A stretch of 64,000 bases of DNA, taken from assembly GCA_949282265.1 (NCBI GenBank), contig CASDOZ010000010.1, positions 27,190 to 91,189 of the forward strand. Direction: 5' to 3'. Position 1 is the first letter of the stretch; each line of letters opens with the position of its first letter. Below the pieces are notes generated by a model. The model searched no databases and was not told the DNA's origin. It worked only from the letters and a program-made list of their open reading frames with translations. Positions 28,851 through 44,514 of this stretch are shown one piece after another. Source of the stretch: an uncultured Bacteroidales bacterium (GTDB lineage: Bacteria; Bacteroidota; Bacteroidia; Bacteroidales; Paludibacteraceae). The translations under genes were made by a program, and so were the position numbers.

Positions 28851-28940
28851 AAGATTCTACAATTAAACATCAACTTTTCAAACAGGAAAAAACCTTGCTT
28901 TTACACAAGCATTTCCCTGCTTTTCCATAAATTCAAACTG

Positions 28941-28972
28941 CAAATATACAAAAACAGTTCATGTAGCACCAA
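28941..28972 (-). promoter_or_regulatory. Promoter of the sppA operon
   Basis: On the minus strand TATATTTG at 28941-28948 is a full -7 match, with TTGG (28969-28972) 20 nt upstream as a partial -33 box. It gives a leader of about 85 nt before the sppA ATG. Confidence 0.55.
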
Positions 28973-29042
28973 TTTATAACGGAATTTAATTGGAAAAATT
29001 CACATAAAATTTTATCGGGCAACAATCGGAATGGAACATAAA

Positions 29043-29075
29043 AAAAAGATTGCCTACCGCACAAGCAATCTTTTT
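29043..29075. terminator. Bidirectional terminator ending the polysaccharide locus
   Basis: A perfect 11-bp inverted repeat (29043-29053 with 29065-29075) has A-runs at the left and T-runs at the right, so it works on either strand. It follows the last gene of the polysaccharide locus by 67 nt. The remainder of the 292-nt gap to sppA holds only the sppA promoter. Confidence 0.75.
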
Positions 29076-29142
29076 ATCTGGTTTTTAAGAGTCTGAAAAA
29101 ACATGTGTACAAAAAAATCATAAAACATTGCCACAAAAAGAT

Positions 29143-30276
29143 TTAATAATCAGTTGCCCAATATATTTTTTTATCAATGACTGTGTTATCACTTATTTGT
29201 GCTGGATAAAAATGATCCATATATTGAGGGTCTTCTTTAATAATTTCTTTACTTCGAGGATAGTTTTCAATAAACCATATTAAAAATTCTGTTGGATTAA
29301 TTGTACTGTACTCAAGAGTTCTTCTTATTATATTAGCTTTCTCCCAGACTTCCTCTTTCTCTATTTTATTTATAGCATTCTTTATCTCATATTCATCCGT
29401 AGTGTTAATCACAATATCAGGAAAAGTAGCTGATTGAATGCCTGTATTCCCAACATGCAATGGATTGATGTATAAAGTTGGTACACCCAGCACAAAAGAT
29501 TCCGATGCCATTGTAGCTCCTTCTGTTATCATGAACTTGGCATTAGCTTCCATGTCATGCATTTGTTCCGGCCGTATTTTCAAAGCAAATTCCTCATATG
29601 GATTTGGCAATGACTCATGTGAAACAAAAACACGATATTTTTTAGACAATTCTTTAACGATTAATCTTTTGCTGTCCTCCGACAAAGGTTTTGCCACCAA
29701 ATCATGATGTGCATCGTACGAAATAAATCTCACTAAAACGTACTCATTTGGCTTGACTCCTAATTTATCCAGAACATCCGTTTGGGGAGAATAAAGTGAA
29801 GAATGTAAATATAACTGCTCAACAAACGCATTAAAATATAATTGTTTTTCACCAAGATTCTTTTTAAAATAGAAAGGTGTAAGAACACATGAACAAAACC
29901 GAAGATAAATCTTATGGTTCATTGTATTATGTTCAGTATCATCCAATAGTATACATGGCTTACTAAATACGGCAGAGGTGATTGCACACGCAGAAGAAGC
30001 AAAGCCAAGATACATATCTGGTTTAAAGGCAACACTTGCTTTTATACAAGCAAATACCATTTTTAATAGATTAACAAGAGAGGCAATAACTCCCTTTTTC
30101 TTAGGACGCGGATTCCTAACAATGTGATTAATATCGTAATAATCCAACAGATAGTTTATAATCGGACTACTTCTATTAACAACCAGAAACGAATGCCCTT
30201 TAGTTTCCATGATTTTAATAAAATTCCGGAAATAATGGACATGTGCAGGATGATTAATGTCAATTAGTATCTTCAT
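29143..30276 (-). CDS. DUF354 family glycosyltransferase-like protein
   Basis: The 377-residue protein starts ILIDINHPAHVHYFRN, the typical opening of DUF354, a family with a GT-B-like fold related to UDP-GlcNAc 2-epimerases and glycosyltransferases. A later acidic motif LLDDTEHN and the Gly-rich TEGATMASESFVLGVPTLY resemble the donor-binding C-terminal half of GT-B enzymes. No signal peptide or transmembrane helix is seen. It is the last gene of the polysaccharide locus, so a role in assembling the repeat is likely; substrate and donor are unknown. Confidence 0.75.
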   Translation of the reverse strand: MKILIDINHPAHVHYFRNFIKIMETKGHSFLVVNRSSPIINYLLDYYDINHIVRNPRPKKKGVIASLVNLLKMVFACIKASVAFKPDMYLGFASSACAITSAVFSKPCILLDDTEHNTMNHKIYLRFCSCVLTPFYFKKNLGEKQLYFNAFVEQLYLHSSLYSPQTDVLDKLGVKPNEYVLVRFISYDAHHDLVAKPLSEDSKRLIVKELSKKYRVFVSHESLPNPYEEFALKIRPEQMHDMEANAKFMITEGATMASESFVLGVPTLYINPLHVGNTGIQSATFPDIVINTTDEYEIKNAINKIEKEEVWEKANIIRRTLEYSTINPTEFLIWFIENYPRSKEIIKEDPQYMDHFYPAQISDNTVIDKKIYWATDY

Positions 30277-30505
30277 ATTTTTTACTTATAACGTTTAGAT
30301 TTATCGTTGCTGATTGACTAACGCGTGTTTTCTCGCAGCAAAAATATTTTACTTTCCCAAACTTTTTACATCTCATGTATTTATAAAATTTTGCAGAATC
30401 TCTTTTTCTCTCTAATAGTAATCTGGTAAACCCATAATATATTCTTCTCAATAGCCATAACTTTATTAACTCGTCAATTATACACGAAATAATATCTAAA
30501 ACACC
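30260..30505 (-). pseudogene. Gene remnant, 82 codons without a proper start
   Basis: An open frame on the minus strand runs from a TAG at 30506-30508 to the TGA at 30260-30262. It lacks an early ATG; the only internal ATG is about 37 codons before the end. It encodes basic, hydrophobic sequence including IIDELIKLW, RRIYYGFTRLL and FYKYMRCKKFGK, which faintly recalls the N-terminus of a polysaccharide acyltransferase, but I cannot assign it. It overlaps the DUF354 start by 17 nt. The surrounding 30277-30582 gap is AT-rich, has no other gene and may be scar from gene loss. The call is tentative. Confidence 0.3.
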
Positions 30506-30582
30506 CTATACAAAATTCGAATTACAATTCCCTGCACTTCTCCATTAAGTTATCACATACTATCCTACTAATAACACCACAT

Positions 30583-31911
30583 TCAATTTAAGAAAAACAA
30601 GTTTTTGCCATTCTTCCTATTTGCTATTGAATCAGAATACTTTATTATTATGTTGCAATCATTTCCTGCATGTTTATGCATCGTGTCAACAATTAATTTT
30701 TCTTCATCCTGGTCGTAACCATGCCCCTTAACTATCTCTACCGTAATTTGCATTGGTGCGCTTTTGAATATACGATACCCGATGACATGCAAATCCTTAA
30801 ACAATATCGTAAAACCCGGTCCCGTAAGATTTCGTCCATTTTCCAGTTCTATAATATCCGACGTCCGTCCTATTACTTTCTTCAAGACCTGACCATTATA
30901 GAACGTATTATATCCATCGCCCAATTCCAATTCATCTCCAAGGCGATAACGGATAAACGGAAATACCATATTAGTCACATCAGTCAAAAGCGCAACTCCC
31001 GTATTTTTTCTATCCTGACTCTGGCTTTGTTCAATCTGCACAATACAATTATATCCCACTTTATATCCACTTCCCGTACTATGAGCTACAATACCTCCAT
31101 CATTAGCCCCATAAGAATCAAGAACAACACATCCAAAAGCATCTTCAATAGTAGCCCTATATGTGTTTGTAAGTATCTCGGAAGTCGGGAAACATGCTTT
31201 AATGCTAAGTTGTTCTCCTAAATTCTTCCGTTTCACATATTTGGCGAGCAGATAAATTGCAGATGCATACCCATATATAAAATGTATATTCCTTTTTTGA
31301 ATTGTTTTGACACAATTCATAAGCACTTCTTCCGAAAGGTTCATGGCGTTGAACGGGTACTTTCCTTTCATTCTATAGAACAGAGTATGCAAAACGGAGC
31401 ATTTGTTTGTCGGGAAGATGGAAGAACTTCCTAACGCCAAAAACCTGTCACCGTAATGATATCCGACCTGTTTCCACATTATCGTATTAAACGCATTATC
31501 AAATCCCCACGATTCATTGTCTTTTATATATTTCGTCGGATCTCCCGTAGATCCACCCGTAGCACTTGGTTTATAATAATACCGATCTTTATTGGAAAGC
31601 AATATGTCATTGAATCTCTCCCTGATAATTTCCTTTGTTAAAGGAGGAATCTTCTCAAGGTCACTGAAAGTCAATATATCCGAAGGCTTTATGTGGTTTG
31701 TATCAAATAATTCACGATAATATACTGAATAATTGTAGGCATTGTCAATCAATTGATGCAATTTTGATAATTGCCATTCCTTGATCTGGTCAGGCGACCA
31801 TTTTTGCATATTACCTATTGTCTTATACCAATGCGCCATGTTGGTATGAAAAAAAGTGTCCACTACAGGCAGCACACCTCTTAAAATAATAGATTCCTTG
31901 AATGAACTCAT
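30583..31911 (-). CDS. CapK/PaaK-like AMP-forming acyl ligase family protein
   Basis: The 442-residue protein belongs to the phenylacetate-CoA ligase-like branch of adenylate-forming enzymes often found in capsule loci as CapK. The phosphate-binding loop is SATGGSTGDPTKY (near residue 116), the adenine region is DSYGANDGG (near 268), and YRLGDELELG followed by GRTSDIIELENG corresponds to the hinge Asp and Arg region. These enzymes activate carboxylic acids as acyl-AMP and often acyl-CoA. In this locus it could provide the CoA ester used by the lyase, hydratase and acyltransferase at 36.6-38.6 kb; that is inference. Composition is AT-rich relative to flanking chromosomal genes. Confidence 0.82.
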   Translation of the reverse strand: MSSFKESIILRGVLPVVDTFFHTNMAHWYKTIGNMQKWSPDQIKEWQLSKLHQLIDNAYNYSVYYRELFDTNHIKPSDILTFSDLEKIPPLTKEIIRERFNDILLSNKDRYYYKPSATGGSTGDPTKYIKDNESWGFDNAFNTIMWKQVGYHYGDRFLALGSSSIFPTNKCSVLHTLFYRMKGKYPFNAMNLSEEVLMNCVKTIQKRNIHFIYGYASAIYLLAKYVKRKNLGEQLSIKACFPTSEILTNTYRATIEDAFGCVVLDSYGANDGGIVAHSTGSGYKVGYNCIVQIEQSQSQDRKNTGVALLTDVTNMVFPFIRYRLGDELELGDGYNTFYNGQVLKKVIGRTSDIIELENGRNLTGPGFTILFKDLHVIGYRIFKSAPMQITVEIVKGHGYDQDEEKLIVDTMHKHAGNDCNIIIKYSDSIANRKNGKNLFFLN

Positions 31912-31948
31912 AATTCCAATATGTTTATAAAATAATATATTTTACATT

Positions 31949-32962
31949 TCAATTAATACCGTAGCAAGAATACAATTGTCCTTTTATGTTGTCCCACGAA
32001 TAGTTCGAAAGAGATTTTTTAGCCGTTTTAATTATCTCCAATGATTTATCGCCATGCTCAATAGCCCAAATCATTTTTTCAGCTAATTGCCTAAAATTAT
32101 CTGACTCTACAAGCAAGCCGGTCACATTGTCCTCCAACATATATGGAACACCACCAACGTTACTTGATATTACCAAAAGGCCACATTCACTTGCTTCTAA
32201 AATAGACATAGGTTGGTTATCTATTTTGGGCATAGAAATAAAAATATCAGATTGATCAAGGTAATCATATACCTTTGAATTGGGAACCCGCCCCTCAAAA
32301 TAGACATCTTCAAGTTTTAAATCCAAAACCAACTGTTCCAGATTTTTACGGCATGGTCCATCGCCCAATATGCACAATTTGGCCTCCGGCATAGACTGCT
32401 TTACTATAGTGAAAGCCTTTATTATACACTCTATATTATAAAGTGGTTGCAATGTGCGTACGCTAATAAAATTAGGCTGAATCTCATGACGCTCCCGATA
32501 ATGCGATTCATTTGGAGGCAGGATATTCGGAATAATCTGACTATCTAACCCATATTTATCGAATATTTTTGCCAAGAAACCAGACAATACTATATTTACA
32601 TGCGTCTGCTTCAAATAATACCTCACACACCAAGAAAATTTCCTAAAAAAAGATTCAGCACTCCCTCCGTGATAAGTACATACAATTCTTTTACCTAATC
32701 GTTTAGCAACCGTAATGGCTAAAACAGCCGGAAAGAAACCTATATATGAACAACAATGGACATGAATTATATCATAGGCTTTGGCCTCACAATACAAGTT
32801 ATGGAACATTCCCAATCGAGATATCATTCCTCCCTTTGTTGAATATATATCTGCTTCTACGCCTTCTTTATTTAGACATTTACATAATAACTCAACTTGA
32901 CTTGATATTCCTCCTGTCGATGAAATATAATTTGCAACAATCAAAATTCTCAGCATATCCAT
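31949..32962 (-). CDS. Glycosyltransferase family 4 protein
   Basis: The 337-residue protein shows the GT4 (GT-B) pattern: ANYISSTGGISSQVELLCKCL at the N-terminus, the CTYHGG acceptor-side loop, CILGDGPCRKNLEQL, and the donor-site region MPKIDNQPMSILEASECGLLVISSNVGGVPYML. These enzymes transfer a sugar from a nucleotide donor to the lipid-linked repeat on the cytoplasmic face. Two start codons lie two codons apart (32962 and 32956); the choice is not critical. Which sugar is transferred cannot be told. Confidence 0.9.
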   Translation of the reverse strand: MDMLRILIVANYISSTGGISSQVELLCKCLNKEGVEADIYSTKGGMISRLGMFHNLYCEAKAYDIIHVHCCSYIGFFPAVLAITVAKRLGKRIVCTYHGGSAESFFRKFSWCVRYYLKQTHVNIVLSGFLAKIFDKYGLDSQIIPNILPPNESHYRERHEIQPNFISVRTLQPLYNIECIIKAFTIVKQSMPEAKLCILGDGPCRKNLEQLVLDLKLEDVYFEGRVPNSKVYDYLDQSDIFISMPKIDNQPMSILEASECGLLVISSNVGGVPYMLEDNVTGLLVESDNFRQLAEKMIWAIEHGDKSLEIIKTAKKSLSNYSWDNIKGQLYSCYGIN

Positions 32963-32977
32963 TCCATTATAAAGGTT

Positions 32978-34351
32978 TCATGCACAAGGCAAATAGACTT
33001 TATCATATTTTCTTGATATAAAAATCACAATCATTAGCATGACCTGCATGGCTATATTTCCCATAATCTGCCCATTATAAAATACGAAATCAAATAACAC
33101 CGTTCCTATCAAAATCCATCGGAATCCTTTTTGTGGGATACGGAACATGATTTGCATATAATATAACAAAAACAAAAATAGGCCAAATAAGCCTGATATA
33201 AAATACATCATGACTATTCCTGTAACTCCTCCCCGATAACTTATACCAAAGTAATAGTCAGAGTTGAAATAATCTGCCCGATCTGCATACTTTATATATT
33301 CGTTTCCAACACCGAAAAGTTTTTGCCTGTCATAATCAAAAACATGAATCAGATCATTCCAGAAAAACACAACCGCTCCCAATCTGCCTTCTCCTTCCTT
33401 GACTTCAATCTCTCCCGCATTGGTTCTCGTACCTCCCGAATAATTCAAAGCATAATTATAAGCATACAACGGATCAAAACTGCCCCACACCTTGTGTTCC
33501 GGATTCAATGTTGGCGACAAACGCAAACCAAAATAAAAAAACATCAATGCAAACAAAGACAATGGCACGGATATCTTCAAGAATTGAGGAACAGTGTGTA
33601 TATTATAATATGCCATCAAGATCGCATATAACAAAGGGAACATTAACCAAACAGCCCGCTTACCCGTCATAAATCCGATAAAAAGAAAGCCAATCATTAA
33701 CAACAGGTTTTTCCACGTAAACTTCATACGCGTATTTACCGCCAGCCACAACAAACACAACAAAGGAAACGATGTACCAGCCCCGCCGCCTCTGATTCCC
33801 GTCAGTGAACCAACCCAACCTTCCTGGGTTGCTTGCAGAATCAACAATTTAATCCCGCAAAAAACAATCTGGGCGATAATCAAGTCACGCAAAACCATAT
33901 TCAGCAACACCATCCCCCGAAGCCGATACCTTATCAGAAAAGCATCAACAACCAGAAACATTGCAACCGGTATCGTGTAACTCAATACTTGCGAAACTAC
34001 AAGCCCCAGATTATCGTCATGCAAAAATACGGAAATAAAAAAGAAATATAAAATATAAATTACAAAACACAACAAAATTGCATTGTTCTTCTTATTATAT
34101 CCATAGCGTCTGAACAAAAAGAAAGCCCATACAATCACACACACCTTGTAAATATGGGACATGCTATTTCCCAGAGAAAAAATTTGTCCTAAATCAGAAA
34201 AGACTCCTGACATAAAAATCAATACAATGCATTGTGCAAACGATGCATTCCTATACTTCCAAAACAAGTATAGGAAAACAGCTATCATCAACACATTATA
34301 CAGTATCAACTGAAAGCTGGAGATATTGTTATAGGTAACAAAAAAATCCAT
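32978..34351 (-). CDS. O-antigen/capsule polymerase, Wzy-like
   Basis: The 457-residue protein is almost entirely hydrophobic helices (about 11 or 12) with one larger periplasmic loop near residues 275-345 that includes SGGTRTNAGEIEVKEGEGRLG. That layout, plus its place between glycosyltransferases in a locus with Wzx and Wzc, is typical of Wzy polymerases, which join repeat units in the periplasm. Wzy proteins share little sequence, so the call rests on topology and context. A GT2 gene starts 2 nt upstream in the operon. Confidence 0.78.
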   Translation of the reverse strand: MDFFVTYNNISSFQLILYNVLMIAVFLYLFWKYRNASFAQCIVLIFMSGVFSDLGQIFSLGNSMSHIYKVCVIVWAFFLFRRYGYNKKNNAILLCFVIYILYFFFISVFLHDDNLGLVVSQVLSYTIPVAMFLVVDAFLIRYRLRGMVLLNMVLRDLIIAQIVFCGIKLLILQATQEGWVGSLTGIRGGGAGTSFPLLCLLWLAVNTRMKFTWKNLLLMIGFLFIGFMTGKRAVWLMFPLLYAILMAYYNIHTVPQFLKISVPLSLFALMFFYFGLRLSPTLNPEHKVWGSFDPLYAYNYALNYSGGTRTNAGEIEVKEGEGRLGAVVFFWNDLIHVFDYDRQKLFGVGNEYIKYADRADYFNSDYYFGISYRGGVTGIVMMYFISGLFGLFLFLLYYMQIMFRIPQKGFRWILIGTVLFDFVFYNGQIMGNIAMQVMLMIVIFISRKYDKVYLPCA

Positions 34352-34353
34352 AC

Positions 34354-35295
34354 TTAAACAATTTCCTTATACGATTCTTGTATGGTTTTGGGCCAAAAGA
34401 ACAACACGTTCCATGTAAACAAGATATCCCTACAAATAGCATTATAAAAAGACTTAAACACAGAAACTTTATTTTTAGCTGCAGCACGAAAAGCCCTGTA
34501 AAACCAACCCGACAAACAAACAAGCCATACCCACGGGCAAAACCAACATAGCAATGCAGAAAACCAAAACACCAAAACCGAGTAATTCTGGCAAATAAAA
34601 ATTTTTAAATAACCTGTTTCTAAACAATGTTTCCTAAACAACAATGATGAATACCTAATATATGACAAGGCTTCTTCCCTATGCAGATACAACACCATAT
34701 AATGATTCGCTATATGTACAGGTTTACGCAAAAGTTTGACCCCCTTTTTAGCCAAACGAAGCGCCAAATCGTAGTCCTGGCTTCTTTTTTGCCTCGTATC
34801 CATTCCTCCAACACGATTCCACAGTTCTTTTTCTATCAAAAAAACACCTCCGGTCACAACTTGGTAAGTGTCTTTATTGACTTTAGCCCTATAATTATTC
34901 CTTATAAAAACCCAATTCTCATCATAACAGTAATCAACCAAATAACCAGACACGAAAGGATATACAAGCCGGCCATTCTGATCTAAAACAGTTGGCAGGA
35001 AACCGGACTGTATTTCCATATCGCCATCGATAAAAAACAGTATCTGGCCTTTTGCCTCTTTGGCACCTATATTACGGGCAACTGCCGCATTGCATTCACC
35101 TGTTATTAAAAACACACGAATATTTATCTTGTCGTAATGTTTTGCTATTTCAACACTGTTATCTGTCGATTGGCTATCCACGTAAATCACCTCATAACAA
35201 TCGATATGGTCGTTTGCTATCACCTCATAAATAGCAGCAAAACATTTATCCAAATGGCGGCCCTCATTCTTTCCTATCACAATAAATGAAATCAT
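34354..35295 (-). CDS. Glycosyltransferase family 2 protein
   Basis: The 313-residue protein has the GT-A fold signature: ISFIVIGKNEGRHLDKCFAA, the SQSTDNSVEIA nucleotide site, FFIDGDMEIQ with the DxD metal motif, then GGMDTRQKRSQDYDLALRLAKKG (family ED/QxxxW-like acceptor region). Two hydrophobic helices near the C-terminus (LCWFCPWVWLVCL) suggest membrane attachment. The ATG overlaps the stop of the preceding GT56 gene (4 nt), so the two are translationally coupled. Confidence 0.92.
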   Translation of the reverse strand: MISFIVIGKNEGRHLDKCFAAIYEVIANDHIDCYEVIYVDSQSTDNSVEIAKHYDKINIRVFLITGECNAAVARNIGAKEAKGQILFFIDGDMEIQSGFLPTVLDQNGRLVYPFVSGYLVDYCYDENWVFIRNNYRAKVNKDTYQVVTGGVFLIEKELWNRVGGMDTRQKRSQDYDLALRLAKKGVKLLRKPVHIANHYMVLYLHREEALSYIRYSSLLFRKHCLETGYLKIFICQNYSVLVFWFSALLCWFCPWVWLVCLSGWFYRAFRAAAKNKVSVFKSFYNAICRDILFTWNVLFFWPKTIQESYKEIV

Positions 35296-36434
35296 GTCTT
35301 TTCTATCTTTTTGAATTCCTGTTCCACGAATGAGATTGCAGCCTGTTCGGAAGTTATTTTGGAATATATCAAATCATAATTATATCTTGCCTTTTCCTCT
35401 GACAAAGGGGTAGAGAGTTCCTGTTCGTTCAAATCATCTTCTATCGTGTACACATAAAATCCATATAACTCTTTGAATTGTTTATACAAGACACTGTCTT
35501 TATAGAAGAAAACCTTTACTCCTGATTTTAAGCACAAGTGTATATTCCCTACTGCCTGCTGTCTCATATTACCGAAAATGGCATGCGAACAGGTTTTTAC
35601 AAGAGTATTGTATTCGTCCAATGGTATAAATGTATCCAATACACGCACGGCATCAACATCAAAAGATTTATTAATATAGCTTTTGACAAAATCACGGTAA
35701 AGTCCATTCCCATAACTCATGGGAACGATAATAGTTCCTGCCTTCGGCATGTTTTTCAGAATGCTCAGAACATCAACATGATTGTTTGTCGGAGTTGCCG
35801 AATTTCCCACCAATATATTTTGGGCAACAGGAAAACAAGAAAAAACCGAAGCCGAATAACGTTTAGGGACTGCCGACCAGAACAACTCTCCTTTGATTTG
35901 CTGAGACTTCTTTAAATACTCAAACTCAATAGGCAAAACTGGAGAATAATACTGAATACGTTTTAATACATAGTTCCTTTTAAACTTGTCAAAAGGGTAT
36001 AACAAGCAAAAATACATTCTTTTCAACCATGACCAGATATTCTGTTTATCACTTTTAAAGAAACGGCTTGTCTGTTCTTTATACAACGGAATCTTTACCA
36101 ATGGAGGCAACATTCTGTATGAAGCATACATATCATACCCCCATATCCACCAAATAATTTTCACGCCTCGTGGTATGGCAAAAATCAGTTTATATCTTTT
36201 AGGTGACAATGAATGCACATACACACAAGAAAAATTTCCTTTTCGTATCATTCCGGCCAGTTCCATCATGCTTGAACAGAAGAGCAAACCTTGCGTATTT
36301 TTAATATACCTCAACTGGCATTTCTTATCCGGCACATACAAAACATACGTATTTTCAAAAGTCGGAATCGAATCGAAAAATTTCCTAGACCCCTCATAAA
36401 ATTTGTCATCAACAACAAGATGCAATATTTTCAT
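35292..36434 (-). CDS. WecF-like family 56 glycosyltransferase (4-acylamido-4,6-dideoxyhexose transferase)
   Basis: The 380-residue protein has the ILVGNSATPTNNHVDVLSIL motif, which matches the GNSGDPSNNH pattern of WecF (GT56, TDP-Fuc4NAc:lipid II transferase). Other matches are IIVPMSYGN, the YINKSF segment and VLDTFIPLDEYNTLV. WecF uses TDP-4-acetamido-4,6-dideoxy-D-galactose. This locus also has a VioA-like 4-aminotransferase and a PglD-like acyltransferase, so this enzyme probably transfers the acylated 4-aminosugar they make; the link is inference from family specificity. The neighbouring 131 nt upstream in the operon is AT-rich and has no gene. Confidence 0.82.
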   Translation of the reverse strand: MKILHLVVDDKFYEGSRKFFDSIPTFENTYVLYVPDKKCQLRYIKNTQGLLFCSSMMELAGMIRKGNFSCVYVHSLSPKRYKLIFAIPRGVKIIWWIWGYDMYASYRMLPPLVKIPLYKEQTSRFFKSDKQNIWSWLKRMYFCLLYPFDKFKRNYVLKRIQYYSPVLPIEFEYLKKSQQIKGELFWSAVPKRYSASVFSCFPVAQNILVGNSATPTNNHVDVLSILKNMPKAGTIIVPMSYGNGLYRDFVKSYINKSFDVDAVRVLDTFIPLDEYNTLVKTCSHAIFGNMRQQAVGNIHLCLKSGVKVFFYKDSVLYKQFKELYGFYVYTIEDDLNEQELSTPLSEEKARYNYDLIYSKITSEQAAISFVEQEFKKIEKT

Positions 36435-36565
36435 ACTTTATCTATACCAAAAGAGGAAACGCCTCCTCATGAGACTCTTGTTTTATCCTTGACAATGGAA
36501 ATCTACCTGAATACAATGTATAAATATCACTTAAAAAACAAATAACTAATAACTAGACAAACTGA

Positions 36566-37459
36566 TTATTTGTTGTTGCTTTTAGACAATTCGAATCTTT
36601 TTATAATATTCCTCGCCATTTTCACCATAGGAGGCCCGATAAATTTATTGTCCTTGACTGCGACTCCCTTGCCTTGAGCAACGGCCTCTTCCGACAAACG
36701 CAACATTTCTTCAGCCCACTCCACTTCTTCCTGAGTTGGAGAATAGTATTTATGACACAAAGGCAACTCTTTCGGATTCAGAACCAACATTCCTTCAAAA
36801 CCAAGTTTTTTGGACAAAACCAGGTTCTTTTCCAAGTCTTCCAAATCATGCACTTTGATATGGACCGTATCAATCGGGACAATACCGTTCGCCTTAGCGC
36901 CCATAGCAATCATTGCACGGGCCGTAAAAATACTTGTCCCTTCCAAATCATGCTCCCCTCCAAGATCAGTAACAAAATCTTCACAACCAAACGCCACAGC
37001 AACGACTCTGTTCGGGCATGCCGTACATATTTCCTGGATATTCATGACTGCTCCTGTAGTTTCTATCAACGGAATGATTTTAAACGTGCCGACAGGTATC
37101 TTCTTTTCATATTCTATAGTTTCCAATAACTTCCCGAAAAAATAGACATCCTCTCCCTTCTGACTTTTAGGATACATGAATCCTTCCACACCGGGAATAG
37201 TCAGTTGATAAACATCCTGTAACAACTCTCCGCTTTCGCGGTCGTTGACACGAGGAAAAACCCTGCTGTTCGCAAACCGTCCTTGTGACACATATTCTTT
37301 GATTTTATCGCGTGCCACCTGTTTGTTTTCACGGGGTTGTACCGAATCTTCTATATCCAACAGCAAAACATCCGCTTCGCACTTGGTCGCACTATTCATA
37401 AGTCGTTCATTGTGAGCGGGTACGAACATCATGCTGCGCATCAAATAATCAACCTTCAT
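36566..37459 (-). CDS. CitE-like CoA-ester lyase (HpcH/HpaI aldolase/citrate lyase family)
   Basis: The 297-residue protein is a member of the CitE-like malyl/citramalyl/beta-methylmalyl-CoA lyase group: RSMMFVPAHNERLM, the metal and CoA site ADVLLLDIEDSVQPREN, RVNDRESG, IIPLIETTGAV and AFGCEDFVTDLGG. Enzymes of this group interconvert hydroxyacyl-CoA with acetyl-CoA or propionyl-CoA plus glyoxylate or pyruvate. It overlaps the MaoC hydratase gene by 11 nt, a pairing known from CoA-ester pathways in other bacteria. It is unexpected in a polysaccharide locus and suggests that the locus makes a hydroxyacyl-CoA, possibly for N-acylation of an aminosugar. Confidence 0.85.
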   Translation of the reverse strand: MKVDYLMRSMMFVPAHNERLMNSATKCEADVLLLDIEDSVQPRENKQVARDKIKEYVSQGRFANSRVFPRVNDRESGELLQDVYQLTIPGVEGFMYPKSQKGEDVYFFGKLLETIEYEKKIPVGTFKIIPLIETTGAVMNIQEICTACPNRVVAVAFGCEDFVTDLGGEHDLEGTSIFTARAMIAMGAKANGIVPIDTVHIKVHDLEDLEKNLVLSKKLGFEGMLVLNPKELPLCHKYYSPTQEEVEWAEEMLRLSEEAVAQGKGVAVKDNKFIGPPMVKMARNIIKRFELSKSNNK

Positions 37460-37916
37460 ATATCCGTTTTTTTACTAAAACATTTCTGCGGAACGATATG
37501 ACATCCACAGCGTTTTGATTATATCCGATTGTTTCCACATATACAATTCCCCTGTCCGGTTTGGATTTGGACTCACGCTTGTCCAGTATTTTAGTTTTGA
37601 CATACAATGTATCACCAATAAACATGGGAGCCAAATGCCTTATGTCTTCATAACCCAAATTAGCGATAGCCTTTCCACTAATGTCCGGTACAGTCATTCC
37701 AACTGCCAAGGAAAAGACCAATGTACCGACAACCAAAATCTTCCCGTGCTGATTTCTTGCGGCATAATCTGCATTTGTATGTACGGGATGGTGGTTCATT
37801 GTCAGCAATGAAAAAAAATTATTGTCGCTCTCAAAAATCGTTTTGGACAAGGCGTGTTTGATTTCCGCCCCAACGACAAAATCTTCATAATATAAACCTA
37901 AAACAGATTGGTCCAT
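37449..37916 (-). CDS. MaoC-type enoyl-CoA hydratase
   Basis: The 155-residue hot-dog fold protein has the hydratase loop NHHPVHTNADYAARNQHGKI, followed by GTLVFSLAVGM and the ESKSKPDRGIVYVE segment of the mesaconyl/itaconyl-CoA hydratase-like branch. It should add water to a 2,3-unsaturated acyl-CoA, or remove it. In the loop the residue matching the usual Asp before N-P-x-H is Asn here, so activity or substrate may differ; the alignment is by eye. It overlaps the CitE-like gene and starts 2 nt after the acyltransferase gene ends, so the three are tightly coupled. Confidence 0.85.
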   Translation of the reverse strand: MDQSVLGLYYEDFVVGAEIKHALSKTIFESDNNFFSLLTMNHHPVHTNADYAARNQHGKILVVGTLVFSLAVGMTVPDISGKAIANLGYEDIRHLAPMFIGDTLYVKTKILDKRESKSKPDRGIVYVETIGYNQNAVDVISFRRNVLVKKRIYEG

Positions 37917-37918
37917 TC

Positions 37919-38578
37919 CTACTCCTCCTTTTTACGCAACAACCTAGCCGGATTTCCTACAACAATAGATCCTTCCTCTACGTTCTTTAAAACGACAGAA
38001 CCCGAACCTATTAATGAATAATCTCCGATTATTACTTTTTCTCTAATTGTGCAATTTGTACCCACATGACATGCTTTCCCTACAATAACATTTGCTCCTA
38101 TTGTTGCATTTGAAGCTACATGAGCAAAACGTTTTAATGTGCTATCATGCCCTAAAAATGAATTTGGTAACATAATACAATTATCTTCTAATGTCGTATC
38201 AGGAGATAATTGAGACAGTGGAGCCATCAAAACTCCATCACCTATTTTGCACATCCCTTTCGGCACAATCGCTGTAGGGTGAATTAATGTAGCCAACCGG
38301 TTTGAAGGAATATCCAAGGAAATTATTTTTTCATATACTTTCTGCTCTTTTTGCATCCCAACATAAGCTATAAAAAAAACATTATTCTCATCTGCCATAA
38401 AAGTCGCCAAATCATCAGTTGTTCCTATCACAGGATATTTTTCATACTTCCCTATTTCTGACCCTACTGGCAAAACATCATTGAGAAACCCCCCAATCGT
38501 ATATGTTCCCAACTCTTTTGCAATGGATATAGCTATCATCCCAATACCACTGCCTCCTAGCACAATTAGATTCTTCAT
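37919..38578 (-). CDS. PglD/NeuD-like sugar N- or O-acyltransferase
   Basis: The 219-residue protein has an N-terminal Rossmann-like domain (IVLGGSGIGMIAISIA) and a C-terminal left-handed beta-helix of hexapeptide repeats (GANVIVGKACHVGTNCTI, IGDYSLIGSGSVV, VVGNPARLL). This is the PglD/NeuD layout; PglD N-acylates the 4-amino group of a UDP-4-amino-4,6-dideoxy sugar with acetyl-CoA. His144 (in LGHDSTL) sits about where the catalytic base of PglD is expected. The gene is 2 nt from the MaoC gene and 3 nt from the LUD gene. Its likely job is to acylate the amine made by the VioA-like enzyme. Confidence 0.85.
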   Translation of the reverse strand: MKNLIVLGGSGIGMIAISIAKELGTYTIGGFLNDVLPVGSEIGKYEKYPVIGTTDDLATFMADENNVFFIAYVGMQKEQKVYEKIISLDIPSNRLATLIHPTAIVPKGMCKIGDGVLMAPLSQLSPDTTLEDNCIMLPNSFLGHDSTLKRFAHVASNATIGANVIVGKACHVGTNCTIREKVIIGDYSLIGSGSVVLKNVEEGSIVVGNPARLLRKKEE

Positions 38579-38581
38579 TAT

Positions 38582-39406
38582 TTAAAATCCTAATTCTTTA
38601 TTAACCACAATTAAATGGATCCTGTCTGCATGATGATGAATCTGACCACGAACAATTACCGTGTTCATGCAAGCACTCTCTAGATTGCTACAATTGACAC
38701 ATCGTCCTAACTTAACACAGGGCAAATTTTCATGCTTCGTATAATGTTTGTTTGCGTGTCTTATGTATGTAAGCGGAGCCGCATAATTATGAACCCTATT
38801 TAATGCAGCATCCAAATCTGTAGTAATTTTATTTTTTCCTACAATGACAATGACATGTTTCGGACCAAAAATCATACTTGACACTCTATTCCCCAATCCG
38901 TCTACCGATACTATTTCTCCCCTAAGCGTTATTGCATTAGCTCCTATTATAGTTAAATCACTACAATGGGCATCCCTTATATTCTCGTACCAAAGATTAA
39001 ACTTTTCCTTATATTCATCATAGGGCAAACTCATTCTTCCTTTTGGTCTCTCTCCGTATATATAATAATGGCCACTTTTTGAACGGCGCAAAGGCCATAA
39101 CACATTCAAATTTTTATATTTATCAAGCATGTAGTCAAAAAGCCCCAGTTGATACAGTGTCACTCCATCGCTAAATGAAATTTTTTTTATGTAACTCCTC
39201 TTTTCTATAAAATCATCAATAATTTTATATACCTCTTCTTTATTATTTGCCGAATAAACACTAATACGCCTGCTTTCAAAAGATTTTTTCAACAACGCAA
39301 ACTGACTTAAAAACAACGATTCGAATTCATTTTCCAGATTCGTTTCATCTACATACATATTTACATCTTTTACTAATATTTCCCCTTTTTCTTCAACGGA
39401 TTCCAT
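38582..39406 (-). CDS. LUD-domain (DUF162) protein
   Basis: The 274-residue protein matches the LUD family: GANAITLRGEIVSVDGLGNRVSSMIFGPKHVIVIVGKNKI, the D-x-D-A-A-x-x-R-V segment and a Cys motif CVKLGRCVNCSNLESAC near residues 231-247. LutC and related proteins take part in lactate or other 2-hydroxyacid oxidation, though the exact chemistry of stand-alone LUD proteins is poorly known. LUD genes are unusual in polysaccharide loci. The gene is 3 nt upstream of the acyltransferase gene, so a role in handling the hydroxyacyl group is plausible but unproved. Confidence 0.8.
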   Translation of the reverse strand: MESVEEKGEILVKDVNMYVDETNLENEFESLFLSQFALLKKSFESRRISVYSANNKEEVYKIIDDFIEKRSYIKKISFSDGVTLYQLGLFDYMLDKYKNLNVLWPLRRSKSGHYYIYGERPKGRMSLPYDEYKEKFNLWYENIRDAHCSDLTIIGANAITLRGEIVSVDGLGNRVSSMIFGPKHVIVIVGKNKITTDLDAALNRVHNYAAPLTYIRHANKHYTKHENLPCVKLGRCVNCSNLESACMNTVIVRGQIHHHADRIHLIVVNKELGF

Positions 39407-39508
39407 ATGTTACATGTTACAATTTATACGGTTATTGGTTTCTGTTTCACTCTTTTACTTCGTCTACTGACACATGGTCATCAGAGCTGTTCCTTCACAA
39501 TAATTCAC

Positions 39509-40618
39509 TTACTTAACAACACTCTCCAACACCCTTCCTACTTCCTCATCGCTCAGTGTCGCAAACATTGGCAGGCAAATTACGCTGTCGGCAAGTTTGC
39601 GGGCGTTGGGCAGATTCTCGGCGCGTGCACTTTCCAAGCCTCGGTAAGTAGAGAAATCACTAATCAAGGGATAGAAATAACGCCTGCCGTAAACGCCCTT
39701 TTCCTGCATTTTGAAATAAAGCGCATCGCGGGTCATGCCGTATTCTTTTTCGTCGACAAAGATAGGGAAATATGCGTAATTGTGCCGCACGCTTGGGATG
39801 TCCTCAAAACAGCGTATACCAGGAACTTTGCTCAACTCGCTCCGGTACATTTGTGCAACATGTTTGCGCCTTTCAATTGCAGTGTCCACCTGTTTTAGGT
39901 TCAGCAAACCGTAAGCTGCCCGCACCTCGTCCATTTTGCTGTTTATGCCTGGCGCAACAACCTTTGTCTCACCCGCAAAACCGAAGTTCTTGAGGTAATC
40001 TATGTGCTGCTTTGCCTCAGCAGAATGCATTACAAGCGCACCGCCCTCAATGGTGTTGTAGACCTTTGTGGCATGAAAGCTGAGCGTAGACATGTCGCCA
40101 GCCTTCAACACACTCTCGCCATTCACCTCAACGCCAAAAGCATGGGCAGCATCATAAATCACTTTGAGTCCGTAAGTGTCTGCAATCTCTTTAATGCGAG
40201 CCGTATCGCAAGGGTTGCCGTATACATGCACTGGCATAATGGCCGTGGTTTTCGGCGTAATGGCAGCCTCTATTTTGTCGGGATCAAGATTGCCCGTAAC
40301 AGGATCAACATCTACAAACACGGGCTTTATGCCGTTCCACCAGAGCGCATGTGTCGTAGCAACAAAACTATAAGGTGTCGTTATCACCTCACCCGTAATA
40401 CGTAAGGCCTGCAAGGCCGTAATCAGCGGCAAGGTACCATTCGTAAACAACGAAATATAAGGAACATCCAAATACTCCGACAAGGCCTGCTCCAAACGTT
40501 TGTGGAATGAACCGTTATTGGTAATCCATTTGCTGTCCCATATTTCCTGCAAATATGGAATGAACTCCTCCAACGGAGGCAATAACGGCGAAGTAACTGT
40601 AATTTGTCGTTTATCCAT
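39509..40618 (-). CDS. VioA-like PLP-dependent 4-aminosugar aminotransferase (DegT/DnrJ/EryC1/StrS)
   Basis: From the ATG at 40618 the 369-residue protein reads closely like VioA, which makes dTDP-4-amino-4,6-dideoxyglucose: PPLEEFIPYLQEIWDSKWITNNG, SLFTNGTLPL, the IYDAAHAFGV segment and PLP Lys185 in SFHATKVYNTIEGG. The frame extending to 40789 overlaps wzx and is rejected. Its substrate would be dTDP-4-keto-6-deoxyglucose; rmlA and rmlB are not in the window. It is visibly richer in GC than the LUD gene downstream of it. A 102-nt gap follows. Confidence 0.88.
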   Translation of the reverse strand: MDKRQITVTSPLLPPLEEFIPYLQEIWDSKWITNNGSFHKRLEQALSEYLDVPYISLFTNGTLPLITALQALRITGEVITTPYSFVATTHALWWNGIKPVFVDVDPVTGNLDPDKIEAAITPKTTAIMPVHVYGNPCDTARIKEIADTYGLKVIYDAAHAFGVEVNGESVLKAGDMSTLSFHATKVYNTIEGGALVMHSAEAKQHIDYLKNFGFAGETKVVAPGINSKMDEVRAAYGLLNLKQVDTAIERRKHVAQMYRSELSKVPGIRCFEDIPSVRHNYAYFPIFVDEKEYGMTRDALYFKMQEKGVYGRRYFYPLISDFSTYRGLESARAENLPNARKLADSVICLPMFATLSDEEVGRVLESVVK

Positions 40619-40629
40619 AAAAATAGTCG

Positions 40630-42084
40630 TTATTTCTTTTTCATAAAACGTGATATAAACAAGCTTCTTACCTGCTCCCATTCCTGCATTTTGAACAATG
40701 AGGCCATTCCTGTATAAAAACCGACACCAATCAGAAAACCGGCACACAATTGCAATAGCAAAGGTTGCCCATGCAACAGCCAGACGCACAGCCAGACTAC
40801 CACTCCCATAAGCAAAGACAAAAATCCTGTCGGCAACAAGTCACCCATTTGCTTAAAGAAACCTACATGTATCAACTTTCCTGTATAATGCGTATTAATG
40901 ACCAATGCTATCAACGAAGAGCAAACACTACCTATTAACATAGGAATCAATCCGAGAGGAATGGTTATACATAAAATAGCCACACCCACTATTTTTTTTA
41001 TAATCTCCAATCTCAGAAATAAATCCGAACGCCCCTTCACTTGCAGCAAATTCAGATTGATGGCATGAATCGGATACCACATCATGGAAAAGCACATAAT
41101 CTGTAACAGGATGACACATCCTTCCCACTTATCCGTCAGCAAGAACAAAACCAACGGGGATGCCAAAGCCGCCAGCCCTATCATTAACGGAAATACGACA
41201 AAAGCAGATATCCGAAGATATTTCCGATATATATATTGCAATTGCCTATCATCATCCTGGATATTGCTCAAAATGGGAAATGTTACCCGCGACAAAATAC
41301 CGGTTATATTCGATGATGGTAAATTTACAAATTGTTGTGCACGTGTATAAAATCCCAAATCCCTGGCAGAAAAAACTTTACCAATAACCAAGGTGTACAG
41401 ATTCGTATATATGGTATTCAACAAACCGGACAACAACATTCTGGAGCCAAACGAAAACAAATCACGGAAAGAATCCCATGAATACGCCCGTTGTGGACGC
41501 CACTTGGAAACAAGCCAAAAAGCCAACACGTTCAATCCTGTCCGCGACACGCTTTGAATAGCCAACGCCCAGACACCATACCCCAGATATGCAAGCGCAA
41601 TACCCAATAATCCGGAAAGCAAAACAGCTGGAATTGTAACCCTGGCTTGTGTCTTAAAATCCACCCTTATGGTGAACTGCGCCCGCTGTACAATTACCAA
41701 TGAATTCAGAAAAACGTTCAAGGCAATCAATCGGGTCAACTGTTTCAGAATAGGCGTATCATAGAAACCGGCTATCAATGGAGCGGCCAAAAACAATATT
41801 AGATAGCAAACAATCCCGACAACAATGTTAAAATAAAAGGCCGTGGAATAATCCACGTCTGTCCGGCCTTTTTTACGTATCAATGCATTGGAAAATCCCG
41901 AATCAACAAATGACTGGGCTACAGCCATAAAGATAGTAAGCATACCGACAACACCAAACTCGCGGGGAGAAAGCAAACGCGCCATAATAATTCCCAATAC
42001 AAACTGGATACCTTGTATTGAAAAGCGCTCCACACTGCTCCAAAAAACGCCATTGACCGTTTGTTGTTTAATTGACTGCGGCAT
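40630..42084 (-). CDS. Wzx-type oligosaccharide flippase
   Basis: The 484-residue protein has about 12 to 14 membrane helices and the polysaccharide synthase/MATE-like pattern NGVFWSSVERFSIQGIQFVLGIIMARLLSPREFGVVGM, with DSGFSNALIRK and the YTRAQQFVNLPSSNI region typical of the WzxC-like branch. It moves the completed lipid-linked repeat across the inner membrane to the Wzy polymerase. It lies between wzc and the aminotransferase gene, 11 nt from each. Confidence 0.9.
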   Translation of the reverse strand: MPQSIKQQTVNGVFWSSVERFSIQGIQFVLGIIMARLLSPREFGVVGMLTIFMAVAQSFVDSGFSNALIRKKGRTDVDYSTAFYFNIVVGIVCYLILFLAAPLIAGFYDTPILKQLTRLIALNVFLNSLVIVQRAQFTIRVDFKTQARVTIPAVLLSGLLGIALAYLGYGVWALAIQSVSRTGLNVLAFWLVSKWRPQRAYSWDSFRDLFSFGSRMLLSGLLNTIYTNLYTLVIGKVFSARDLGFYTRAQQFVNLPSSNITGILSRVTFPILSNIQDDDRQLQYIYRKYLRISAFVVFPLMIGLAALASPLVLFLLTDKWEGCVILLQIMCFSMMWYPIHAINLNLLQVKGRSDLFLRLEIIKKIVGVAILCITIPLGLIPMLIGSVCSSLIALVINTHYTGKLIHVGFFKQMGDLLPTGFLSLLMGVVVWLCVWLLHGQPLLLQLCAGFLIGVGFYTGMASLFKMQEWEQVRSLFISRFMKKK

Positions 42085-42095
42085 ACCGTCATTAT

Positions 42096-44492
42096 TTATA
42101 CTCCCGCCTCCTCATCCGTATAATACGAATGCCCGTGTTTTTTCTTTTTAGATCCATAATAGCCGTAACCATAGCCGTAACGGTAACCATACGAACGATA
42201 TGAATAATAAGAACCACCATCGGTCGGCAGGTCATTCAACAACAAAAACATATTGGACATGTTGTCTTCATGCAATTGCGTCAATATATTCCGACAGAAA
42301 TACTTGTTTGTCTCGCCACTGCGAAGGATAAACAGCTTGACATCAGCATATTCCATCAAGGCATAGGCATCAGCAACCAACCCTATTGGACTGGTATCAA
42401 TCAAAATATATGAATACCTCTGCTTTAATTCCTTGAACATTTCGTGAAGTTTATCCGAGCGCAACAATTCCGCCGGATTCGGCGGGATTGTGCCAGATGT
42501 CATCACATCAAAATCGTAGCCCGTATCAGTCAAAATAATCTCATCCAAACTTGCATCGCCTATGATATAGTTTGTCAAACCATTGCTTTCGGGCAAAGAA
42601 AGTTGTTCACGCAAATTTGCCTTACGGATATCCATATCTATCAACAAGGTTTTGCGCCCAGTCAACGCATACATGGCGGCCAGATTGGAACTGAAATAAG
42701 TTTTCCCATCGCCGGACTGGGCAGAAGTGGTCAATATGGTAATGTCAGTTTTGCGGCATACGGCAAACTCCAGACGGGTACGCACGTTCCTGAACATTTC
42801 CGCAAACGATGAACGCGGACTTTTGGCTACCAATACCGGATCCTGCACCCTCGAATGTCTGATGACACCCAAAACAGGAAACCATTTGGTAAATACATCC
42901 AAATCCTTTTCCGTACGAATGGTATTGTTCAAAACCTCTTTTAGGATCACAAACAGCAAAGGCAGCAAAATGCCTATCAGAAGTGCCAATACATATATTT
43001 TGCTTTTGGCAGAAAGGTTTGTTACCTTGATTGTCCGTGCCTTGTCCAAGACACTATTGTCTGGCGTGTTTGATGCCTTTTGTATTTCGGCTTCCGCCCG
43101 CTTTTGCAAAAAGAAAGTATAATAACTGTCATTAATACGGTAATTACGTTCTATTGAGACCATCTCCTGCTCTTTTTCTGACAAACCGGCTATGTCGGCA
43201 CGGACTTCCGAAAAACGTTTGTCCAAATCAGCCTTTTCTATCTCCAAAGCGGCCTGCATATTTTTCACCACTTCCTGGATGGTGGCCTTCAAGTTTTCTA
43301 TATCCCTGCTATAACGGGCATAAAATACATTTTTCTCTGTTATTTCTCCCCGCTTCAACTGCAAATCGTTTAACTGCTGCACCAAAGGAACCAGCAACGG
43401 ATCTTCAACACCAAGGCTCGAAGGCACAACAACCGTACTCGTAGCCATCTTGTCGCTCAAATAATTCGTGATATAGGTCAAATAGGTTTCACGTAAACGA
43501 AGCGCCAATTTTTCCTGGTCGTACTTTCCAACCATTTCCATAAGCTTGGATGCATAATTGGACACGCTGACAATCTCGTTTTCCTGCCTGAAACCTGTTA
43601 TGGCCTCTTCCGACACAGCCAGCGAACTCGCTATAAGTTTCAATTGTTCATTGATAAAATTAATCGTGTTGTTGGCGACATCGTTTTTCTTGGCCAAATT
43701 ATTTGCTATGTACAACTCGCACATTTTGTCAATAAAATCCTTGTCGCGGCTCGGCGTCTGGCTTTCCAACGAGATGGACAACACCGTGGATTTTTCCGTC
43801 ACAAGTTGCATCGACAAACGGGTTGAGAAATCTTCTACCAACGATTCCCTATTGCGGAAACGGAAATACATTGTCCGGTCAGCGACCATATTCACAGTCG
43901 GCAACACGGTAATCGTGAAATAAGGAGTCGTCAGACATTCGCCATAATGACCGCTGACATGGAAATCATTATCTTCAATTCCAATCTCAAAGGAGCCATC
44001 TGGATTCAAGTCAATCGAGAACAAAAAGTTATAAGCCTCCGGCTCTATACTCTTGCTCTGTATTTCTATCGGTGAAGATTTATATAAATTTCGCGTCCGG
44101 AAACGCCCCATCGTAATATAATCAACCGACAAATCCGGTAGACTGTCAATAATCTGGCACAGGAAATCATAAGAACTCAGCAAAATGAGCTGGTTATCTA
44201 TATTGGTATAACTTTGTGCCAATCCAAATCCTTGCAGCATTAGGCTTTCACTGTCCATATAACGGGACGATGCCCCCTGGTTTTCAATCAGGACCGTGCC
44301 TGTTGTCTGATAATTGGGAAGCCACGAACGATTCTTCAAATACGCCAATCCCAAGGCTATAACAATAGCAGCGACAAACAAATACCAATAATTCAGTACC
44401 TTGTAAATCCACTCCAAAATATCGAAGTTCGATGTTTCCTCATCCTGGAAAGGCTGCATATTATATTGATTATATTGCTGATTGTCTTCCAT
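42096..44492 (-). CDS. Wzc-type polysaccharide co-polymerase and BY tyrosine kinase
   Basis: The ATG at 44492 gives 798 residues; an upstream TTG at 44501 is less likely. It contains a Wzz-type chain-length domain between two membrane helices (about residues 30 and 490), then a cytoplasmic kinase: Walker A TSAQSGDGKTYFSSN near 590, Walker A' TLLIDMDIRKANL, Walker B YILIDTSP, and a Tyr-rich tail (YYSYRSYGYRYGYGYGYYG) for autophosphorylation. Wzc controls polymer length and export together with the Wza lipoproteins. No Wzb-type phosphatase was found nearby. Confidence 0.93.
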   Translation of the reverse strand: MEDNQQYNQYNMQPFQDEETSNFDILEWIYKVLNYWYLFVAAIVIALGLAYLKNRSWLPNYQTTGTVLIENQGASSRYMDSESLMLQGFGLAQSYTNIDNQLILLSSYDFLCQIIDSLPDLSVDYITMGRFRTRNLYKSSPIEIQSKSIEPEAYNFLFSIDLNPDGSFEIGIEDNDFHVSGHYGECLTTPYFTITVLPTVNMVADRTMYFRFRNRESLVEDFSTRLSMQLVTEKSTVLSISLESQTPSRDKDFIDKMCELYIANNLAKKNDVANNTINFINEQLKLIASSLAVSEEAITGFRQENEIVSVSNYASKLMEMVGKYDQEKLALRLRETYLTYITNYLSDKMATSTVVVPSSLGVEDPLLVPLVQQLNDLQLKRGEITEKNVFYARYSRDIENLKATIQEVVKNMQAALEIEKADLDKRFSEVRADIAGLSEKEQEMVSIERNYRINDSYYTFFLQKRAEAEIQKASNTPDNSVLDKARTIKVTNLSAKSKIYVLALLIGILLPLLFVILKEVLNNTIRTEKDLDVFTKWFPVLGVIRHSRVQDPVLVAKSPRSSFAEMFRNVRTRLEFAVCRKTDITILTTSAQSGDGKTYFSSNLAAMYALTGRKTLLIDMDIRKANLREQLSLPESNGLTNYIIGDASLDEIILTDTGYDFDVMTSGTIPPNPAELLRSDKLHEMFKELKQRYSYILIDTSPIGLVADAYALMEYADVKLFILRSGETNKYFCRNILTQLHEDNMSNMFLLLNDLPTDGGSYYSYRSYGYRYGYGYGYYGSKKKKHGHSYYTDEEAGV

Positions 44493-44514
44493 AGAAAACA
44501 AGTTTATGGTATTT

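Follow-up and report, generated by a model that had tools for sequence, protein, structure and literature searches.

A conserved MaoC-CitE gene pair with a glycine lid residue near N-acyltransferase genes in bacterial surface polysaccharide loci

Our analysis of a capsule locus from an uncultured Bacteroidales bacterium of the family Paludibacteraceae revealed that two adjacent genes, encoding a MaoC-type hydratase and a CitE-like protein, constitute a conserved two-gene module that recurs near N-acyltransferase genes and whose CitE-like member carries a Gly at a lid position otherwise occupied by Asp. The locus lies on a stretch of 64,000 nucleotides (contig CASDOZ010000010.1 of assembly GCA_949282265.1, positions 27,190 to 91,189), here referred to as the window; the draft genome is 89% complete and comprises 28 contigs with a total of 2.47 Mb. 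How hosts and phages recognize a given bacterium is shaped by the N-acyl groups of its surface amino sugars and, to our knowledge, the origin of unusual N-acyl groups is known in few cases. The original prediction, made from the letters of the window, had proposed a pathway for an unusual N-acylated 4-amino sugar but had not described the module. This proposal is still the best reading, as the pair accompanies N-acyltransferase genes at many loci; the acyl group itself is one that we infer. We assign a probability of about 0.5 to the whole pathway, in which the MaoC-CitE pair would make an acyl coenzyme A (acyl-CoA) for N-acylation of a surface sugar. That the module serves sugar acylation is likely, and the acyl group is tentatively placed in the C4-C5 hydroxy- or enoyl-dicarboxylyl class.

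The CitE-like protein passes the threshold of the HpcH_HpaI family PF03328 (Table 1), and its predicted fold, a triose-phosphate isomerase (TIM) barrel with a C-terminal lid of two helices and a beta-hairpin between them, aligns with the structure 4l9y over residues 1 to 293 (VIA-align). In the model, the lid consists of helix 243-261, strands 267-269 and 272-274, and helix 276-295. Passages of PMC3832036 list Glu and Asp ligands of Mg, a Glu-Asp pair and a catalytic Arg as features of the PF03328 superfamily, and the alignment shows all of them intact in the window protein (E133 and D161, E37 and D38, and R70, respectively). The same passages describe a lid Asp that is conserved across the CitE-like superfamily, is replaced by Glu in the malyl-CoA thioesterase clade and is the presumed proton donor or acceptor of malyl-CoA lyases (PMC3832036). 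However, the residue of the window protein that aligns with this Asp (Asp299 of the Rhodobacter sphaeroides malyl-CoA lyase) is Gly275. Of the features expected from the lyase assignment put forward originally, the metal and Arg site is present and the lid Asp is absent.

This substitution is a property of the whole group of related loci described below, here called cassettes. Gly occupied the lid position in all 52 readable cassettes of the 53, with the metal and Arg site kept, in contrast to Asp in 29 of 29 readable non-cassette CitE relatives. An artefact of the search was ruled out, as none of the six peptide patterns used spans the lid motif. The other catalytic residues are fixed among the cassettes, and the ratio of nonsynonymous to synonymous substitutions (dN/dS) was 0.047 for CitE in comparison with L032, a near-twin locus in a Bacteroidales metagenome bin that is the nearest named record (CitE identity of 98%). 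The best NCBIfam models were citE (TIGR01588, 174.7 bits against a cut-off of 443.4) and then the RipC citramalyl-CoA lyase (NF038242, 109 bits against 375), both missed. Given the Gly in place of the lid Asp, the activity of the CitE-like protein is not transferable from the family name, and sections of PMC6689899 call functional assignment of PF03328 proteins by bioinformatics alone unreliable.

The 53 cassette loci comprise the window, 45 of the 46 loci obtained by a contig scan with the window CitE and seven loci taken from a 395-genome sample of the phylum; L077, which has an Asp lid and no MaoC match, was left out. Genes were called with a simple script, and the counts that follow are not independent of one another. 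A MaoC gene lay 400 bases or less from the Gly-lid CitE gene in 52 of the 53 loci (the exception being L067). A gene of the NeuD cluster, defined as BLAST-linked hexapeptide proteins, was found within 3 kb of the cassette in 39/53 loci and one of the AAC3 family within 1.5 kb in five, so that 44/53 had one or the other. A DegT gene was present within 5.5 kb in 39 loci and FdtA within 2.5 kb in 13; NeuD and DegT were likewise inside their set distances in 12 and 11, respectively, of these 13. AAC3 (PF02522) and FdtA (PF05523) were each confirmed in one scanned member. In the 42 loci that extend 3 kb or more to each side, MaoC was present in 41 and NeuD or AAC3 in 36. Six of the 53 loci (L065, L083 and L085 to L088) contain a second CitE-like protein directly upstream of MaoC, with a lid Glu as in the malyl-CoA thioesterase clade, and represent a three-gene form of the cassette.

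The association follows the lid residue. With the same search and 1.5-kb flanks, the Gly-lid loci L003 to L009 had MaoC in 7/7 and NeuD in 6/7 cases, compared with 1/22 and 0/22, respectively, in the matched Asp-lid control loci L010 to L031. We then assigned the pair random positions among the genes of its own loci (49 loci, 20,000 draws, 5,000 for DegT; the other four lacked a called MaoC gene directly before CitE or had fewer than six other genes). In 33 of the 49 loci, a NeuD-cluster or AAC3 gene stood no more than two genes from the pair, compared with 11.0 at random (standard deviation of 2.9, highest draw 24); the corresponding values were 21 versus 5.4 for one gene and 41 versus 16.5 for three genes. 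FdtA was also near the pair beyond chance (11 versus 3.9, highest draw 9), and RmlA (1 versus 2.8), WbqC, PaaK and the ATP-grasp gene did not exceed the highest draw.

The cassette is patchily distributed. Besides Bacteroidota, the Bacillota isolate Anoxynatronum buryatiense (L070) and two bins of Cloacimonadota (L074 and L076) carry it; metagenome bins may be misassigned, since L037, labelled Tissierellia, resembles the Alistipes locus L036 in gene order. The phylum sample yielded 46 matching places, of which the lid reading took in 30 and left out 16 weak matches; a Gly-lid CitE was present in 8/395 genomes, the genome of the window included. Among 395 genomes of the class, the only one with a Gly-lid CitE was that genome itself.

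Comparison among the loci suggested one conserved step with varied partners. MaoC and CitE had median identities of 73% and 68%, respectively (39 loci), whereas the nearest NeuD-cluster protein reached 30% (33 loci) and the nearest DegT 27% (28 loci). CitE distances correlated with those of MaoC (r = 0.50, 0/2,000 permutations as high), weakly with those of NeuD (r = 0.15, 83/2,000) and to an intermediate degree with those of DegT (r = 0.32, 0/2,000). On a tree of 49 Gly-lid CitEs, from which 15 duplicate or shortened rows were left out, the FdtA context required 8 changes and the AAC3 context 4 (at least 4 and 4, respectively, forced by well supported branches). Collectively, these data indicate that the pair has been newly combined with different acyltransferases and with amino-sugar genes both of the FdtA type, which we take to be for 3-amino sugars, and of other types.

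The MaoC protein scored above the cut-offs of both the mesaconyl-CoA hydratase family PF19315 (69.3 bits over residues 7 to 151, cut-off 26.5) and the MaoC family of Pfam (61.2 bits, cut-off 27), and its best NCBIfam match, RipB/Ich (NF038241), remained below threshold (153.7 bits against 340). Its dN/dS in comparison with L032 was 0.048. Asn41 and His46 were present in all 46 aligned MaoC proteins (42 from cassettes and four from the non-capsule loci L022 and L097 to L099); at these positions 1q6w and 4ffu carry Asp and His, and domain 2 of Mch has the Asn...His arrangement. Asn41 was rejected as a hallmark of the cassette, since all four non-capsule proteins have it, and the fixed residues peculiar to cassette MaoC include F28, V63, F68, K82 and Y126.

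A MaoC search of 348 Bacillota genomes at 1e-20 matched four, namely the L070 genome and three with non-capsule clusters. In the latter (L097 to L099), the MaoC-CitE pair adjoins genes for a CaiB-like CoA-transferase and an acyl-CoA dehydrogenase, with a PrpD-like gene also at L097 and L098 (names of these neighbors come from sequence reading), and the lid residue is Asp in the readable non-capsule pairs (L098, L099 and L022). In tblastn searches of the 53 cassette loci, three CaiB queries and those for acyl-CoA dehydrogenase and PrpD, all taken from the non-capsule clusters, found no match, nor did one class I CoA-transferase query from the genome of the window. As no CoA-transferase matched, the cassette resembles a hydratase-lyase pair lacking a CoA-activating step, an arrangement that would fit a CoA ester assembled by condensation and spent on acyl transfer.

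The sugar genes of the window point to a 4-amino-6-deoxyhexose and a NeuD/VioB-type N-acyltransferase, in agreement with the original prediction. The best of 13 NCBIfam matches of DegT was DesI, a dTDP-4-dehydro-6-deoxyglucose aminotransferase (TIGR04427, 300.5 bits, cut-off 650). NeuD exceeded the cut-offs of PglD_N (PF17836, 33.1 bits against 23.4) and of the hexapeptide family PF00132 (67.3 against 27) and fell just below that of TIGR03570 (156.8 against 160.8). Its closest solved relative in the PDB is VioB (7txp, 98.8 bits), and His144 aligns with a His in VioB, 4m98 and 2npo, presumably the catalytic residue of the hexapeptide helix. RmlA (473.8 bits) and RmlB (466.8 bits, with a neighbor in frame) are encoded on other contigs of the genome, both above cut-off. 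Because of the resemblance of DegT to DesI and of NeuD to VioB with the His conserved, and because RmlA and RmlB are present, dTDP-4-amino-4,6-dideoxyglucose (dTDP-Qui4N) is at the family level the likeliest amino sugar and, in our view, a fairly probable one. The GT56 assignment is tentative, at the family level and for part of the protein (PF07429, Glyco_transf_56), with WecF equivalogs far below cut-off (NF052570, 60.8 bits against 525); its substrate is presumed to be an N-acylated 4-amino sugar.

The following pathway, for which we propose substrates, product, step order and direction of catalysis from the observed gene content, linkage and residue conservation and the predicted fold, would connect these proteins. 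RmlA and RmlB would supply dTDP-4-keto-6-deoxyglucose, which DegT would aminate to dTDP-Qui4N. The CitE-like enzyme, whose Mg and Arg site resembles that of malyl-CoA lyase, would join an acyl-CoA and a 2-oxoacid to a hydroxydicarboxylyl-CoA of the malyl, methylmalyl or citramalyl class, and MaoC would interconvert this product with an enoyl form of the mesaconyl or itaconyl class. NeuD would then move the hydroxy- or enoyl-acyl group onto N4 of the sugar, and the GT56-like enzyme would add the N-acylated sugar to a lipid-linked repeat for export by the Wzx/Wzy-type machinery.

Several observations weigh against this pathway. Both NeuD and DegT of the window are below their NCBIfam cut-offs, PF03328 enzymes are broad in specificity, and with the lid Asp replaced by Gly the ordinary lyase or synthase chemistry may be lost. 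Related loci share descent, and DegT was not clearly closer to the pair than expected by chance (within two genes in 14/49 loci versus 9.8, highest draw 19). Nine of the 53 loci (L037, L051, L053, L060, L061, L067, L074, L076 and L085) have neither NeuD nor AAC3 within the set distance, although a NeuD-cluster gene lies farther away in L060, L061, L067, L074, L076 and L085. The putative catalytic His was present in 34 of 45 aligned NeuD-cluster members, and thus some of them would be other acyltransferases. Finally, the CitE frame is broken in L069 and L076, where tblastn gave two pieces in different frames, through either decay or sequencing error.

Three rival explanations were considered. 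N-acetyl is the common case for such sugars, and NeuD may only acetylate, giving dTDP-Qui4NAc, with the MaoC-CitE pair making another substituent of the polysaccharide; the closest solved relatives of NeuD, which are VioB, PglD-type and pilin-glycosylation acetyltransferases, favor this, and O-acyltransferases may be among the cluster members located close to the pair. We nevertheless consider it unlikely, given the excess of NeuD-cluster and AAC3 genes within two genes of the pair and given that the linked acyltransferases belong to two unrelated families (judged from the window NeuD and the one scanned AAC3 member). It is about as doubtful that NeuD receives a simple 3-hydroxyacyl group, for instance 3-hydroxybutyryl, from MaoC acting by itself as an R-type hydratase, with the Gly-lid CitE serving as a partner, scaffold or CoA-ester-binding protein. 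Parts of PMC3210612 document 3-hydroxybutyryl and 3-hydroxy-3-methylbutyryl groups on Qui4N, and CitE lacks the lid acid/base; yet MaoC is nearest to dicarboxylyl-CoA hydratases, with Asn...His instead of Asp...His, and neither the fixed remaining catalytic residues of CitE nor its low dN/dS would be required of a mere scaffold. We regard as very improbable that the pair is an itaconate or mesaconate breakdown module of the RipB-RipC kind that is found in capsule loci by chance. Although the order of NCBIfam matches recalls such a module (RipB for MaoC; citE and then RipC for CitE), the CoA-transferase of a RipA-RipB-RipC set had no match in the 53 loci with the queries used, the pair sits in polysaccharide loci, and the cassettes have Gly where the readable non-capsule pairs keep Asp.

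Within the proposed pathway, the Gly-lid CitE might be a decarboxylative carbon-carbon synthase that uses the carboxylate of malonyl- or methylmalonyl-CoA in place of the lid Asp, a variant that we consider speculative and improbable. Loss of CO2 would then generate an enolate that attacks the Mg-bound 2-oxoacid. The data are consistent with this variant without demonstrating it, and the genome encodes a methylmalonyl-CoA mutase. If it is correct, decarboxylation would turn a reversible lyase into an irreversible synthase, comparable to ketosynthases versus thiolases, and this synthase would perform the acyl-making step of a mobile cassette through which surface polysaccharides of three phyla obtain hydroxy- or enoyl-dicarboxylyl groups.

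The module differs from known systems in several respects. In contrast to the lyases of the CitE-like superfamily (malyl-CoA lyase, CLYBL, RipC and Rv2498c), the window protein has Gly275 for the lid Asp and is encoded in a capsule locus where the CoA-transferase queries had no match. MaoC is like RipB/Ich and mesaconyl-CoA hydratase in passing PF19315 and in its Asn...His motif, as in Mch domain 2, but unlike RipB/Ich it is below the RipB cut-off, pairs with a Gly-lid CitE and has fixed residues of its own. The 4-aminotransferase and NeuD-type acyltransferase recall the VioA/VioB and DesI route to dTDP-Qui4NAc, from which the locus differs by the MaoC-CitE pair and by an acyl donor that is presumably not acetyl-CoA. 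The Fdt pathway leads to dTDP-3-amino-3,6-dideoxyhexoses; the same pair occurs near FdtA in 13/53 loci, whereas that of the window has no FdtA within 2.5 kb and the window sugar should bear its amino group at C4. A similar logic may underlie anthrose synthesis in Bacillus, with a hydratase, an aminotransferase, an acyltransferase and a glycosyltransferase; here, CitE would replace the other CoA enzymes.

The predicted acyl class has precedent, since parts of PMC3210612 describe hydroxyglutaryl and malyl amides on amino sugars, namely a 4-[(S)-2-hydroxyglutar-5-ylamido] group on 2,4,6-trideoxyglucose in Flexibacter maritimus (the acid is also given there as R) and N-malyl sugars in polysaccharides of the marine bacteria Pseudoalteromonas rubra and Vibrio vulnificus. 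Among the matches listed in a search of the open-access literature, no paper tied MaoC or CitE to polysaccharide N-acylation. One conserved two-gene module is here associated with acyltransferase genes of 3-amino as well as 4-amino sugar loci, so that a Gly-lid CitE beside MaoC might predict capsules with non-acetyl acylation, and a CitE subfamily that is under selection without a residue called conserved throughout offers a direct test of the accepted mechanism.

The capsule operon is of the Wzx/Wzy type and runs on the minus strand from 46.2 down to 29.1 kb of the window, where two Wza-like genes are followed by the genes listed in Table 1 in that order. The labels Wza, Wzc, Wzy and GT4 were assigned by reading the sequence, without family search. 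All five proteins named in the original prediction (DegT, NeuD, MaoC, CitE and GT56) were found at the place claimed, on the minus strand, with Pfam scores above the curated cut-offs. Their supposed contiguity failed, as the gene of a LUD-domain protein, which the original prediction had overlooked, sits between DegT and NeuD. The gaps are 102 bases (DegT-LUD), 3 (LUD-NeuD), 2 (NeuD-MaoC) and 131 (CitE-GT56), and MaoC and CitE overlap by 11.

Table 1. Genes of the capsule operon and the lid codon, in operon order (positions are those of the window; scores and cut-offs in bits; GT, glycosyltransferase; aa, amino acids)
Feature	Position	Strand	Evidence
Wzc	42096-44501	-	Label from sequence reading
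Wzx-type flippase, same operon	40630-42084	-	PF13440, 345.1
DegT-family sugar 4-aminotransferase, DesI/VioA-like, 369 aa	39509-40618	-	PF01041, 332.3 (cut-off 19.8)
LUD-domain protein, accessory, 274 aa	38582-39406	-	PF02589, 86.2 (cut-off 22.6)
NeuD/PglD/VioB-type sugar N-acyltransferase, 219 aa, putative catalytic His144	37919-38578	-	PglD_N, TIGR03570, VioB 7txp
MaoC-type hydratase, RipB/mesaconyl-CoA-hydratase-like, 155 aa, Asn41...His46	37449-37916	-	MC_hydratase PF19315, MaoC, RipB_Ich
CitE-like protein, Gly-lid subfamily, 297 aa	36566-37459	-	HpcH_HpaI (PF03328), 144.7 (cut-off 25)
Gly275 codon of the CitE-like gene	36635-36637	-	Ungapped alignment stretch; coordinates and residue number counted by hand
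GT56/WecF-like glycosyltransferase, 380 aa	35292-36434	-	PF07429, 61.4 (cut-off 25), residues 202-340 only
GT2	34354-35295	-	
Wzy-like membrane protein	32978-34351	-	Label from sequence reading
GT4-like gene	31949-32962	-	Label from sequence reading
CapK/PaaK-like adenylate-forming protein, accessory	30583-31911	-	Weak NCBIfam matches
DUF354	29143-30276	-	

Two further genes of the operon look accessory. The CapK/PaaK-like ligase predicted further down the operon is indeed encoded there, but it is not part of the core: it was rejected as the acyl activator, being absent from the near-twin L032 and present within 5 kb in only 8/53 cassettes. The protein had no Pfam match at an E value of 0.01 and weak NCBIfam matches to CoA ligases (best 70.4 bits, cut-off 300). 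The LUD gene was likewise rejected as a core part, being absent from L032 and found within 5 kb in 2/53 cassettes, the window included. Its product is a stand-alone domain with conserved Cys residues (C230, C236, C239 and C246) and, at 1e-15, had relatives in 3/345 genomes of the class, its own counted; relatives were found in the capsule locus L067 (42%) and in the non-capsule-looking settings L098 and L100 (32-33%).

The comparison of window positions 38400-40000 with L032 positions 8450-8880 showed a diverged 3' end of DegT and the LUD gene in the window only. The GT56 genes are nearly identical (synonymous divergence dS of 0.013) and the DegT genes are far apart (dS of 1.4), a contrast that looks like a recombination mosaic. 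The guanine-plus-cytosine content at 28001-40000 is 0.35-0.40, compared with 0.41-0.51 over the preceding 28 kb and 0.37-0.50 over the following 24 kb (2-kb steps), and such lowered values are frequent in capsule loci generally.

Other cassette loci contain additional genes. In L070 (A. buryatiense), a DegT gene (45%) and a GT56-like gene (27%) lie approximately 6 to 9 kb upstream of CitE. Directly downstream of CitE, L033, L036, L037 and L069 encode a ferredoxin/FrhB-type iron-sulfur protein (PF04432 in L036, the one scanned), possibly for a reduction step on the acyl group; a NeuD-cluster gene follows in three of the four, and the sequence of L037 ends there. In L040, L044, L052, L058 and L072, an ATP-grasp ligase (CPSase_L_D2 and LAL_C2 in L052, the one scanned) is located between a more distant NeuD-cluster gene and a DegT gene whose product is 71-76% identical to that of the window.

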